Of a DNA stretch of 64,000 nucleotides, positions 8,859 through 49,170 are shown piece after piece. Source of the DNA: Halothermothrix sp. (GTDB taxonomy: Bacteria > Bacillota > Halanaerobiia > DY22613); NCBI GenBank assembly GCA_016841825.1, contig JAENYK010000001.1:558001-622000 (forward strand), given 5' to 3'. The position numbers and the translations under genes were made by a program. The notes under the pieces were generated by a model. It was not told where the DNA came from and made no database searches. It was given only the letters and a program-made list of their open reading frames with translations. Position 1 is the stretch's first letter; every line of letters starts with the position of its first letter.

Positions 8859-9847
8859 TCCCCTTCATCCCTTCCATACCCTTCATTCACATCCAAAGGC
8901 AAAATGATTTTTCCTCCTGTTTCATCAATCGGCAGCAGAGTCTGTCCACCAACTTTCGAAAGAATCTCATCCATTTTTTCATAAAAAATACGTTGATGCA
9001 CAATCTCTGGATTTTTGACGTACTCATCCAACACTCCATAAAATTCAGCAACTTCCGCCCTGGCCTGAGATATCCTGGCCAGTCTATAAGCTTCAGCTTC
9101 ACGGATTATCTGATCCCTCAATGCTTTAGCCTCCGGGATCTTTTGCTCACTATAACTGCGCGCTTCCCGCAGCAGAGTCTCTTTTTCAACATAGGCACTG
9201 GTCACTTCATCAAAATCTCCTTTTACTTCTATCGGAGGCTGGATTGCCATGAACTCAAGGGTCATAATCTGAACTCCCAGATCAATTGCATCCACACTCT
9301 CCTGCACTAATCTTCGCACATTCTTAGCAGTCTCTTCTTTCCCCTCAAGTAAGATATAATCTACCGGTACTCCTGCCACTATCTGGGTCAAAACACCTCT
9401 TGCTATCTCACGCACAACCTTTTGCGGTTCTTCAACATACAATCCGTAACTTATTGGATTGGTGATCTGATATTTCAGATTGGCTCTGACATTGATAATG
9501 TTTTCATCTCCAGTAAGCAAAAAACCATAACCTTGTCTCGTTATATCCCCTACCCTGGTTGGTGGGTAGAGATCCTCAAGATTAACTTCCTGTATCCGCT
9601 TAATCGGGATTTTAATTACACTATCAATTAGATAAGGGAATGCAAATAATAATCCCGGTTGATGTATCTGTTCAGCAGGTGTATCTCCGACCAATTCTCC
9701 AAAGCGAATAATTAAAGCCACTTCATCGGGCTGCACAAAAGTTACTCCTGATAGGAAAATGCCAATTACCACTACCAATGCAAACCAGCGCATAAAGGCA
9801 ATTGCTGTATTAACACTGTTAATAATCGAAGAGTTAACCTGACTCAT
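8855..9847 (-). CDS. SPFH/Band 7 protein, HflK-like
   Basis: A 330-residue protein with one N-terminal transmembrane helix (~19-40) and an SPFH domain: VQPDEVALIIRFGELVG (~43-60), LLTGDENIINVRANLKYQI (~110-128), then a coiled-coil rich in Ala/Glu (SEQKIPEAKALRDQIIREAEAYR). Family members assemble large membrane cages and in proteobacteria HflKC modulates FtsH. Here it lies in an operon with two more SPFH proteins and a metal ATPase, with no protease nearby. RBS GGAGGGAAAATA; its start overlaps the upstream stop by one base (TAATG). Confidence 0.88.
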   Translation of the reverse strand: MSQVNSSIINSVNTAIAFMRWFALVVVIGIFLSGVTFVQPDEVALIIRFGELVGDTPAEQIHQPGLLFAFPYLIDSVIKIPIKRIQEVNLEDLYPPTRVGDITRQGYGFLLTGDENIINVRANLKYQITNPISYGLYVEEPQKVVREIARGVLTQIVAGVPVDYILLEGKEETAKNVRRLVQESVDAIDLGVQIMTLEFMAIQPPIEVKGDFDEVTSAYVEKETLLREARSYSEQKIPEAKALRDQIIREAEAYRLARISQARAEVAEFYGVLDEYVKNPEIVHQRIFYEKMDEILSKVGGQTLLPIDETGGKIILPLDVNEGYGRDEGE

Positions 9848-46210: not shown

Positions 46211-47695
46211 ATGAATTCAGCAGTATGCCTTGTTGTTTTGCAACCACCAGCATCTATAGCAGACAAACGTTCATTTGAACATATGGGTGTGGCTTATTTA
46301 GCAGCTGCTTTACGTCAGGAGAATATTCCAACGACGATCATTGACCAGAATTTAACAGGTCAATCATTGAGCCAGATCACCACTGAGATTATTCGTCTTA
46401 ACCCTGCAGTAATCGGCATCTCCTGTTATCAGACCGCATTTCAACCTTTACAGCAGCTGGTATCTGAGTTAAAAGCACAACTTCCGGACACCCATCTTAC
46501 ACTGGGTGGAGTCTTTGCAACCAACAGTACCCGGATGATTCTGCAGGATATTTCTGAACTCGATTCATTGATTCTAGGTGAAGGTGAATCTGCTCTTGTG
46601 CGACTAACTAAAGCTATTTTGAATCATCAAAATTGGCAGGAGATTGAAAATATAACATTCACTAATGACCCACATTTTGCATCCAAAAAGCCCTGCTATG
46701 AACCAGACCTGGATCAACTGGCTCCTCCTACCCGTGACACACTCCCCCTGACATTGAAGAAAGGATTATACCCCTTGATTTCAACCAGTCGGGGATGTTA
46801 CGGCAGATGTACCTACTGCTCGATTGCTGCTCAGGGACGTCCAAGACGTACCAGAGACCCAGAATTGGTTATCGAAGAGATGGTCAGGTTACAGAGAGCT
46901 TATGCTACCGACTATTTTTACATCATCGATGATACATTTATCGGAATTAGCCAGAAAGATTACCGGCGAATTGAAGACTTTGCTCGCCAGTTGATCAAAG
47001 CCAATACTAAAATCAGCTTCTCCTTTGAATGCCGGGCCAATGAAGTCCAACCTGAACTAATGCAACTTTTGAAAGAAGCTGGATTGAAACAGGTATTTTT
47101 AGGATTAGAATCAGGTTATCAACCCACTCTTGATCTCTTTCGTAAAGGTTTAAGAGTAGAAGACAATCTTCGGGCTGTTCAGATTCTACAGCAGCTGCAG
47201 ATCAAGTATCTAATTGGCTTTATTATGTTTCATCCCTATACAGATCTGGCAGAAGTCCAGGCCAATCTGCAGTTTCTTTTAAAAACTGATAGGTTTAACC
47301 TGCTTAATAGTTTAAAAAATAAACTTGTTGTCTTTCACAATACTCCAATTGCCCAACAATTAACAGCAGACGGTCTAGCCCCTACAGTCTGGTATGATAC
47401 CCATTGCTCCTTCGTTAATCCGGATATTGAACCATTGTATCAGTTCACCAGACACTTTGATGCAGTAATCAAACCTAAACTAGATCAGCTTCCCATGATT
47501 CTCAAAAAGCTAAATTCCCAGGAAACTCGATCTGACTTAAACCGTCTGCTGCGCACAGTAGGCTCTACATACATTCAAACTATCACTAACTATATCCAAC
47601 AACCAGATTCAAAGATACTAGAAGAGTCTCTGGACCACTTAAACCAACTGTGTACTACACAATTGAACCATTATATTACAATCTATGAAAAATAA
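46211..47695 (+). CDS. Cobalamin-type radical SAM protein, likely RiPP-modifying
   Basis: A 494-residue enzyme. N-terminal ~140 residues have a B12-binding-like Rossmann layout (GVAYLAAALRQENIPTTIID; VIGISCYQTAF; LTLGGVFA; LILGEGESALV). The radical SAM core starts at Cys196 in RGCYGRCTYCS (C-x3-C-x2-C, 196/200/203), with LGLESGYQPTLDLFRKG later. Such enzymes methylate unactivated carbons, make C-C bonds or rearrange. RBS CAGGAGGTCTCAAT. It is followed within 45 bases by a 39-residue peptide gene, and then by a radical SAM/SPASM gene, on the same strand. Substrate probably that peptide. Confidence 0.85.
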   Translation: MNSAVCLVVLQPPASIADKRSFEHMGVAYLAAALRQENIPTTIIDQNLTGQSLSQITTEIIRLNPAVIGISCYQTAFQPLQQLVSELKAQLPDTHLTLGGVFATNSTRMILQDISELDSLILGEGESALVRLTKAILNHQNWQEIENITFTNDPHFASKKPCYEPDLDQLAPPTRDTLPLTLKKGLYPLISTSRGCYGRCTYCSIAAQGRPRRTRDPELVIEEMVRLQRAYATDYFYIIDDTFIGISQKDYRRIEDFARQLIKANTKISFSFECRANEVQPELMQLLKEAGLKQVFLGLESGYQPTLDLFRKGLRVEDNLRAVQILQQLQIKYLIGFIMFHPYTDLAEVQANLQFLLKTDRFNLLNSLKNKLVVFHNTPIAQQLTADGLAPTVWYDTHCSFVNPDIEPLYQFTRHFDAVIKPKLDQLPMILKKLNSQETRSDLNRLLRTVGSTYIQTITNYIQQPDSKILEESLDHLNQLCTTQLNHYITIYEK

Positions 47696-47740
47696 AACAT
47701 TGGAAATGAAGGGAAATTTAACATAAAGGAGGTGTTATAG

Positions 47741-47860
47741 ATGATCGATAAAATGTGGGAGCTTGACAACCTGGATTTTGGTGATTTAATTGTTGGTCCA
47801 ATGCCACCTTATGGTTCTGTAACAATCATTGAACCTATTCAACCTATTGTAAAAGCATAA
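47741..47860 (+). CDS. Putative RiPP precursor peptide
   Basis: A 39-residue peptide gene, too short for the usual ORF cutoffs. Strong RBS AAAGGAGGTGTTATAG before ATG. Residues 1-15 MIDKMWELDNLDFGD look like an acidic leader with one Trp; residues 16-26 LIVGPMPPYGS hold the motif GPMPPYG (Tyr24); residues 27-39 VTIIEPIQPIVKA are hydrophobic with Pro. No Cys, so no sactipeptide or lanthionine. No signal peptide. Flanked by two radical SAM genes at 45 and 94 bases. Precursor role is inference; it could also be a small coupled regulatory peptide. Confidence 0.7.
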   Translation: MIDKMWELDNLDFGDLIVGPMPPYGSVTIIEPIQPIVKA

Positions 47861-47954
47861 GCATTATTTAAATAGTACATATACCCTATTATATCCCTTC
47901 ATTTCCAAACAATTTTCTATATATAAACCCTAATACCCCAGAGGAGGTACCCAT

Positions 47955-49025
47955 ATGAATTTTCAGTTACATACAGCAGTTTGGGAGCTTACCAATGCCT
48001 GTAACGCCAATTGTATCCATTGTGGCTCCAAATCCGGTAAGCAGCGTAGCAATGAACTAACCGAAGAAGAGGCCTTAAAATTGTGTGATGAATTACACGA
48101 ACTGGGCTGCGTTAATTTGAGTTTGATTGGGGGAGAGATTTTTTTAAGCCCCTATTGGGAAAAGGTCTGTCAACGTTTAATTCAACACAAAATCAAAGTC
48201 GCACCATTGACCAACGGGTTACTGGTTAATCAGACCAATCTGGATAAGTTACGTAATGCAGGAATCAATAACATCTCTTTTAGCATTGATGGTCTGGCTC
48301 CTATTCATGACTATATTCGAGGTGTACCAGGTATTTTTGATAAGATGATCGCCAACATCAAATTAGCTCAACAAAATGATTTTATCGTCGGAGTAAATAC
48401 AGCTGTCTCAGCTTTAAACTTAGATCAGCTGCCAGCTCTATATAACCTTCTGCACCAACTAGAGATTAAACTCTGGCAGTTTCAGATCGTCGAAGACATG
48501 GGGAATGCAGTCAATAATCCTGAATTAAAAATGACTGTAGCCGATCTCTATCAGATTGTAAAACAGATCGCTAAATTTCGTCAGAACACTGATATGACTA
48601 TCGTTCTCACTCATAACATAGGATGGTTCTGCTCTTTTGAACCGTTAATCAGAGACCATCCCTTTACTGGCTGTCTGGCAGGAAGGAATGTCATCGGAAT
48701 CCATTCCAATGGTAATATTCGCGGCTGTCTATCGCTAATGAGTGGAGATTCTACCGATAATGTAGAGGGGAATATTCGCCAACGCTCTTTAACTGAGATC
48801 TGGAATGATCCTGAAAGTTTTAAACCCTTCCGTAATCGAACCATTGAAGGTTTGACTGGTTTTTGTGCCAATTGCAAGTATAATCGACTCTGTCGTGGTG
48901 GTTGTTCCTCTGTCGCTTATTCCCTAACAGGTTCTTTCAGTGATAACCCGTTCTGTCTTTATCGTTATGAAGTTGAAAGTGGGGTTAAGATAGAAGATCC
49001 ACTCAATAACATTTCGGCACGATAA
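47955..49025 (+). CDS. Radical SAM/SPASM protein, likely RiPP maturase
   Basis: A 356-residue enzyme. Radical SAM core: ELTNACNANCIHCGSKSG with Cys16/20/23 (C-x3-C-x2-C), GGEIFL for SAM binding (~58-63). C-terminal SPASM domain with about seven Cys: GCLAGRNVIGIHSNGNIRGC, GFCANCKYNRLCRGGCSS and a late NPFC. SPASM enzymes carry auxiliary Fe-S clusters and mostly act on ribosomal peptides (PqqE, MftC type). No RRE (peptide-binding) domain is evident at the N-terminus. RBS AGAGGAGGTACCCAT. Co-oriented with the peptide gene and the first radical SAM. Confidence 0.88.
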   Translation: MNFQLHTAVWELTNACNANCIHCGSKSGKQRSNELTEEEALKLCDELHELGCVNLSLIGGEIFLSPYWEKVCQRLIQHKIKVAPLTNGLLVNQTNLDKLRNAGINNISFSIDGLAPIHDYIRGVPGIFDKMIANIKLAQQNDFIVGVNTAVSALNLDQLPALYNLLHQLEIKLWQFQIVEDMGNAVNNPELKMTVADLYQIVKQIAKFRQNTDMTIVLTHNIGWFCSFEPLIRDHPFTGCLAGRNVIGIHSNGNIRGCLSLMSGDSTDNVEGNIRQRSLTEIWNDPESFKPFRNRTIEGLTGFCANCKYNRLCRGGCSSVAYSLTGSFSDNPFCLYRYEVESGVKIEDPLNNISAR

Positions 49026-49078
49026 ACTATATTATCTATAACCGTTTCAGCAAACTAATTAAGAACATAAGTATCAAT

Positions 49079-49170
49079 GAAAAACGACCTTAAATTAACC
49101 TGATTCCTACTCAAAAGAAGCTCAGATATCAAATCTTCTGAACTTACATTTAAGGTCGTTTTTTATTTTT
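49079..49170. terminator. Long bidirectional terminator
   Basis: AAACGACCTTAAAT (49082-49095) pairs with ATTTAAGGTCGTTT (49148-49161) over a ~52-base loop with an inner AGAAG/CTTCT stem, then TTTTATTTTT on the plus strand and TTTTTCATTG on the minus strand. Confidence 0.7.

Follow-up and report, generated by a model that had tools for sequence, protein, structure and literature searches.

What does a locus make in which two radical S-adenosylmethionine (SAM) enzymes lie around a gene for a 39-residue peptide? Such a locus is found in the window analysed here, a 64,000-nt stretch of the genome of Halothermothrix sp. (GCA_016841825.1, contig JAENYK010000001.1, positions 558,001 to 622,000). A previous reading of the letters without database searches, hereafter the sequence-only reading, had proposed that the two enzymes modify the peptide to a new, Cys-free member of the ribosomally synthesized and post-translationally modified peptides (RiPPs). 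Our analysis indicated that the locus is a real RiPP operon. It is a splicease-type system whose clade lies outside the named models, and it has a cobalamin-binding radical SAM enzyme as a partner and an unusual inverted repeat that encloses the precursor gene. The second enzyme, a radical SAM/SPASM protein, probably excises a tyramine unit at Pro23-Tyr24-Gly25 of the peptide and leaves a prolyl alpha-ketoamide; both the site and the product are predicted because of homology to the splicease family.

The precursor family and its enzyme loci

The three open reading frames (ORFs) were all present on the plus strand where the sequence-only reading had placed them, each with a good ribosome-binding site (RBS), and their cysteine motifs were confirmed. 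The first (46211-47695; RBS AGGAGGT just upstream) encodes the 494-residue radical SAM enzyme with a cobalamin-binding domain (B12-rSAM). The second (47741-47860), preceded by the Shine-Dalgarno sequence AAAGGAGGTG at 47725-47734, encodes the 39-residue precursor MIDKMWELDNLDFGDLIVGPMPPYGSVTIIEPIQPIVKA, which has a WNL-type leader. The third (47955-49025), with the RBS AGAGGAGGT at 47940-47948, encodes the 356-residue SPASM enzyme, a predicted splicease-type maturase. As had been noted before, no gene for a RiPP recognition element (RRE), a protease, or an exporter is adjacent to these three genes; leader removal and export are not encoded near the locus, and PqqD-type RREs are present elsewhere in the same genome.

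The window peptide contains a single Tyr and no Cys, has PPYG at residues 22-25, and matched no family in Pfam or NCBIfam. In the same genome (5.08 Mb), six further paralogs of the SPASM enzyme were found with 55-71% identity, the next-best protein being 28% identical. One to four precursor genes encoding peptides of 28-41 residues lie beside each SPASM paralog. The genome contains 17 precursors, and 15 of the 16 relatives of the window peptide adjoin a SPASM paralog or its B12-rSAM partner. A precursor profile was built from 17 peptides, consisting of 16 of this genome and the tail of a SAR324 precursor, and a search with this profile recovered those 16 together with one orphan that was absent from it, MINKWNLENLSYESATEPPYMDYMPSEPPYDEHFNIA (E 1.7e-8). 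The orphan (L165:6808-6921, corresponding to G000:C2:115808-115921 on the minus strand) lies directly downstream of a gene for a nonribosomal peptide synthetase of 1736 residues, and has its own enclosing stem and no maturase nearby. These 17 family members with strong RBSs, one of them found only by the profile, rule out that the window peptide is a chance small ORF.

Conservation of the peptide, which the sequence-only reading had made a test of its proposal, was thus found in the form of 17 copies within one genome. The idea of a RiPP locus in which a short peptide is the substrate of two radical SAM enzymes was upheld; neither the multiplicity in the genome nor the stem enclosing the precursors had been noticed previously. 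The SPASM clade was not found in relatives of the genome: across 50 genomes, the best match was 35% identical.

The precursors have a common leader, M(I/L/V)(N/D)xxW(N/D/E)Lxx(Y/L/F/M)x(Y/W/F), in which Trp and Leu are invariant and Leu is written with five different codons. A strong RBS similar to that of the window peptide stands ahead of nearly all of them. Each of the 17 precursors has a core Tyr at residue 20-26 with Gly, Ser, Cys, or Met directly behind it; in shuffled cores the mean was 3.4 and the maximum 10, although the significance is somewhat overstated because the residue set was picked after inspection. The residues at +2 and +3 after this Tyr vary freely (SV, AG, AA, VE, AK, TL, CP, PS, and PV). 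Gly follows the Tyr at three of the seven enzyme loci only (the window, L038, and L040), and Ser, Cys, or Met at the others. Since CYG and YCCP occur in the cores of other members, the description as Cys-free holds for the window peptide and fails for the family. A sactipeptide or ranthipeptide was ruled out for the window peptide, which has no Cys, and a triceptide-like cyclophane was rejected because the cores have no conserved partner residue.

Two loci were noticed in addition. At L041:6536-9805 (minus strand), precursors with YCxP cores lie on either side of two enzymes, one splicease-type and the other a Clo7bot-like SPASM maturase (252 bits), and this locus is a possible splice-plus-thioether hybrid. 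At L047:7589-9713 (minus strand), four peptides of 33-36 residues with an FxDLNP motif near the N-terminus lie beside radical SAM genes without an enclosing stem, which is another RiPP-like system.

The SPASM enzyme and its predicted reaction

The SPASM enzyme has CxxxCxxC at 16-23 and the full seven-Cys pattern (C240-X12-G-X4-C258, C304-X2-C-X5-C-X3-C317, and C334), and it matched PF04055 and PF13186. Its best NCBIfam matches were TIGR03913 (260.5 bits; cut-off 591.75) and TIGR04103 (224.5-225.5 bits; cut-off 725). The latter is the 'nif11-class maturase 3' family, to which PlpX of the PlpX/PlpY spliceotide system belongs.

A scan of GTDB genomes with the SPASM enzyme alone yielded 79 loci in Bacillota, Desulfobacterota, Zixibacteria, Fibrobacterota, Spirochaetes, Bacteroidota, and Heimdallarchaeota. 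In 51 of 77 homologous loci, significant enrichment in Tyr-Gly or Tyr-Ala was seen in an ORF adjoining the enzyme, in contrast to none of 398 distant ORFs on the same contigs. Typical cores were KYGIKPVAKYGVKP, LYGIEPPVRPLYGIEP, and KYGYPCGVQDA repeats on proteins judged by eye to be chagasin-like. On a Nostoc plasmid, a true TIGR04103 member (853 bits, above the cut-off), 33% identical to the window enzyme, adjoins a Nif11 precursor ending in IALYGLPPELF, which is followed by a 71-residue ORF in the PlpY position that is PlpY-like by size and place only. TIGR03913 members of Azospirillum and a homolog of Aureibacter sit behind DUF1843 proteins with KPYG, RPYG, QPYG, LYG, or MYM near the N-terminus. 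In the sister families, Ala, Met, or Gln can also follow the Tyr within the same precursor sets (MYMATM, LYAAG, YAAP, and LYQAP). Among the archaeal loci, two of Heimdallarchaeota (L068:5763-7062 and L075:2346-3639) have a splicease homolog directly behind small membrane-like proteins that carry MYGVFIRK close to the C-terminus, a possible case of archaeal splicing of a membrane protein.

In a maximum-likelihood tree of 51 proteins, including five outgroup SPASM families, the seven paralogs and an enzyme of a SAR324 metagenome-assembled genome formed one clade (100/99). The SAR324 enzyme is 54% identical, and its AYG precursor also contains the WNL motif. This clade grouped with TIGR04103/TIGR03913 and with the archaeal MYG and the KYG lineages, and MftC, NirJ, TIGR04053, and a further SPASM protein of the Halothermothrix genome fell outside the wider group (100/99). 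Furthermore, the window enzyme shares a WQxQ...N signature with the family, and Q175, Q177, G248, and N331 are kept across the splicease lineages and differ in all five outgroups. A mycofactocin-type or heme-type SPASM enzyme is disfavoured by the tree and by these residues. The tree and the signature support a common chemistry at Tyr without proving it. Within the wider PlpX 'splicease' family, the SPASM enzyme represents a new clade, and the earlier claim of a wholly new type of RiPP was not upheld. PlpX itself has been described as a SPASM subclass, IPR026482 (PMC11002830).

The AlphaFold model of the SPASM enzyme was good, with a predicted local distance difference test (pLDDT) score of 91, and in it the radical SAM barrel begins at the N-terminus. 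The closest solved folds were SuiB, SkfB, anSME, and PqqE, and no solved structure of a close sequence relative was found. SuiB aligned to the model from its residue 101 on only; therefore, the window enzyme is without the N-terminal leader-binding domain of SuiB, and no RRE was seen in this alignment. Neither a PlpY-like gene nor any other likely gene was found between the three genes or directly after the SPASM gene. Because the enzyme has no RRE and no adjacent PlpY-like gene, it is presumed to bind the WNL leader directly.

In the predicted reaction, a 5'-deoxyadenosyl radical would be generated at the CxxxCxxC cluster of the SPASM enzyme. The tyramine part of Tyr24 would then be cut from Pro23-Tyr24-Gly25 with a net loss of C8H9NO (-135.07 Da), and the Tyr24 carbonyl would be rejoined to Pro23 as an alpha-keto amide. 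The prolyl ketoamide product would be a reactive, serine-protease-inhibitor-like group; such ketoamide residues have been reported to confer protease inhibition (PMC10373908). The sequence-only reading had named Pro, Tyr, Met, or aliphatic carbons as targets. Tyr appears likely among these, and the list as a whole was too vague, as the splicease family points to tyramine excision at x-Tyr-Gly.

Several observations weigh against tyramine excision and the pathway built around it. The SPASM enzyme lies far under the cut-offs of both named models, and PlpX works with PlpY, to which nothing adjacent to the window genes is similar; because of these two points, the enzyme is predicted to act in the manner of a splicease and is not regarded as PlpX itself. 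In the tree, the TIGR04133 outgroup has a very long branch and falls inside the group with low support, which leaves the root uncertain, and the order of the deep splits is moderately supported (88/77). The Tyr chemistry could differ at the four of seven loci with Ser, Cys, or Met sites. Least certain is the role of the B12-rSAM, which was assigned from its domains and its neighbouring genes.

SuiB is one of several SPASM enzymes that cross-link residues, and the fold of the window enzyme is closest to it. The enzyme might form a side-chain cross-link at the same Tyr (a cyclophane or similar, -2 Da) with no tyramine excision, and the precursors in which Tyr precedes Ser, Cys, or Met depart from XYG and would agree with this. 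However, such a cross-link has no conserved partner in the cores, where +2 and +3 are free to vary, and both the phylogeny and the WQxQ...N signature tie the enzyme to the XYG-associated family; we regard this explanation as unlikely. The same Ser, Cys, and Met sites admit an intermediate explanation, in which the YS, YC, and YM loci have shifted to a different Tyr reaction and the PYG and CYG loci, the window included, still splice. The sub-clades indeed track the core type, with PYG and PYS together and the two YMP loci paired at 100/99, and the YC locus also has the Clo7bot-like maturase of 252 bits. Nevertheless, the sister families likewise vary the residue after Tyr within one precursor set, and we give a shift of this kind a modest chance, well below that of tyramine excision.

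The cobalamin enzyme and a probable stem around the precursor gene

The B12-rSAM has CxxxCxxC at 196-203 and matched PF04055 (72.6 bits) and PF02310 (62.4 bits; cut-off 32), showing that the domain described by the sequence-only reading as 'cobalamin-binding-like' is present and is genuine rather than merely similar. Its score against TIGR03975 was 88.4 bits, under the cut-off of 281.85, and its AlphaFold model, from a shallow alignment (pLDDT 56), was not used. Close copies occur at three of the seven loci, namely in the window and as two paralogs of 48-49% identity, each beside a SPASM paralog with precursors. The pair of enzymes was therefore seen three times and always with such a peptide, which by the sequence-only reading's own test counts in its favour. 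The closest homologs elsewhere in the phylum sample are 35-39% identical and have no splicease nearby. In Desulfoluna, Desulfobacterales, and Aegiribacteria (L057:3373-7530, L059, L060, and L058), a different B12-rSAM was observed next to a splicease homolog, together with a chagasin-like protein in which YAAP sites are numerous.

The B12-rSAM would add a further change to the peptide at these three loci, most likely C-methylation of the core, an assignment that we make tentatively. The YCxP locus has a Clo7bot-like SPASM enzyme in place of the B12-rSAM, so that the loci seem to exchange their secondary enzymes. Alternatively, the B12-rSAM could stand outside the peptide pathway as a neighbour with a separate small-molecule substrate, in agreement with its presence at a minority of the loci and with the relatives of 35-39% identity that lack a splicease. 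All three close copies, however, lie directly beside a SPASM paralog and a precursor, and the different B12-rSAM of the desulfobacterial and Aegiribacteria loci accompanies a splicease homolog and a YAAP substrate; a separate substrate is hence rather improbable.

The window peptide gene lies between the arms of an 18-nt inverted repeat. The upstream arm TTGGAAATGAAGGGAAAT (47700-47717, plus strand; perfect 15-bp part 47700-47714) lies 4 nt past the stop codon of the B12-rSAM gene, and the downstream arm ATATCCCTTCATTTCCAA (47891-47908, plus strand; perfect part 47894-47908) lies in the gap before the SPASM gene. The arms are 94% complementary with 173 nt between them, the Shine-Dalgarno sequence of the peptide gene being inside the enclosed region, and none of 200 shuffles matched this repeat. 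RNA folding indicated that the repeat closes the peptide cistron; the total fold energy was unexceptional at the window (z -1.45) and the orphan (z -0.8) and exceptional at L039 (z -3.8).

Every one of the eight precursor loci has a bracket around one or more precursors, which 0-1 of 200 shuffles equalled. The brackets, whose arms have the motif GGARATRGNGRG, are located at 47700-47908 of the window, L038:5131-5317, L039:6883-7120, L040:6500-7111, L041:8164-8486, L042:7417-7972 and 9100-9289, L043:10215-10441, and L165:6759-6959. They enclose arrays of one to four precursors at different lengths. At the L041 locus, two precursors taken singly had weak versions only, as did some single units of L042. 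Among control ORFs of the same sequences, the same bracket score was reached by 1 of 109 other small ORFs and by 3 of 139 ORFs of 100 residues or more. The one small ORF (L039:4945-5118, minus strand) encodes an unrelated Cys-containing RiPP-like peptide of 57 residues beside a radical SAM gene of 485 residues, and a perfect 14-bp inverted repeat surrounds it at -26/+26. In the whole genome, the arm motif forms inverted pairs within 600 nt at the precursor loci only.

Nine stems were aligned and gave 98% standard pairs, a value that is high by construction because the arms were selected for complementarity; the informative facts are the position, the shared motif, the sequences that are changed and still paired, and the rarity around control ORFs. 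Seven of 13 pairs are changed on both sides, and the covariation score was 0.545 compared with 0.262 (sd 0.033) for shuffles. In the sense transcript, G-U accounts for eight of the 10 non-Watson-Crick cells. Because the arms covary and most non-Watson-Crick pairs are G-U, a conserved RNA stem probably surrounds the precursor cistron. Such a stem probably protects the cistron or releases it as its own short mRNA, so that the substrate would exceed the enzyme. Conversely, the repeats might be DNA elements, such as the ends of an invertible cassette or a mobile unit, and the common arm motif is what a recombinase site would have. This is unlikely, given that the arm sequences differ among loci while pairing is kept, that the mismatched cells are mostly G-U in the coding-strand transcript, and that the enclosed arrays hold one to four precursors and differ in length.

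The distant splicease loci were mostly without an enclosing stem. One clear case was observed in Pseudobacteroides cellulosolvens (L062:5606-5884), where a 20-nt inverted repeat encloses a precursor with six YG sites; because of this bracket, enclosing stems are suggested to occur beyond the Halothermothrix genome. Nothing relevant to the stem was found in Rfam, SCIFF precursors, considered for a wider test of the stem, are absent from the class, and a literature search for precursor-enclosing stems found no report. Behind the SPASM gene, where the sequence-only reading had placed a terminator, the terminator scan detected no compact intrinsic terminator. Instead, an inverted repeat with 20-nt arms and a 52-nt loop, ending in T-runs, lies at 49076-49167 (plus strand) and is a possible operon end.

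Significance and comparison with known systems

Few known peptide modifications are as strange as the splicing of tyramine from the backbone, which yields protease-inhibiting ketoamides. If the predicted reaction is true, a clade that splices precursors of 28-41 residues without PlpY at varied sites would offer, through its seven enzyme-substrate pairs in a single genome, a compact natural set for testing what the enzyme requires, and may supply shorter splice tags. The enclosing stem, if active at the RNA level, would suggest one way for an operon to make far more precursor than enzyme. As a speculative extension, these loci may represent a hybrid RiPP class that combines x-Tyr-(Gly/Ser/Cys/Met) splicing with cobalamin-rSAM or Clo7bot-type SPASM chemistry on one short RRE-less peptide, a covarying RNA stem enclosing each precursor cistron or array and releasing or stabilising it as a mini-mRNA; we consider this whole combination possible and somewhat doubtful.

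The operon resembles the PlpX/PlpY system of Pleurocapsa in a SPASM enzyme of the same wider family, the WQxQ...N signature, and an XYG site in the precursor. It differs in that the enzyme is under the TIGR04103 cut-off and in a separate clade, PlpY is not adjacent, the 39-residue precursor has a WNL leader and no Nif11 or nitrile-hydratase leader, and the partner is a cobalamin-rSAM instead of a PoyD-type epimerase. TIGR03913, the 'GDL motif peptide-associated' maturases of Azospirillum with the Aureibacter homolog, was the best NCBIfam match, and its substrates have PYG, LYG, and MYM. However, the window enzyme is under that cut-off as well, and the TIGR03913 enzymes have extra N- and C-terminal regions and their sites at the N-terminus of a DUF1843 protein. 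The window peptide is not a DUF1843-type substrate, and it contains 'GDL' at residues 14-16 in a different context.

The KYG/LYG repeat systems of Clostridia, Fibrobacter, and others share enzymes of 33-36% identity, the same signature, and xYG substrates with the window. Their maturases are larger, at about 480-515 residues with a C-terminal extension, their substrates are chagasin-like or have a GG leader and usually contain many sites, and unlike the window they have no close cobalamin-rSAM homolog. Finally, the B12-rSAM resembles the cobalamin-dependent RiPP C-methyltransferases of the TIGR03975 type in having B12-binding and radical SAM domains beside a RiPP precursor, whereas it scores under the cut-off of that family, and its methylation of the core is a tentative prediction.

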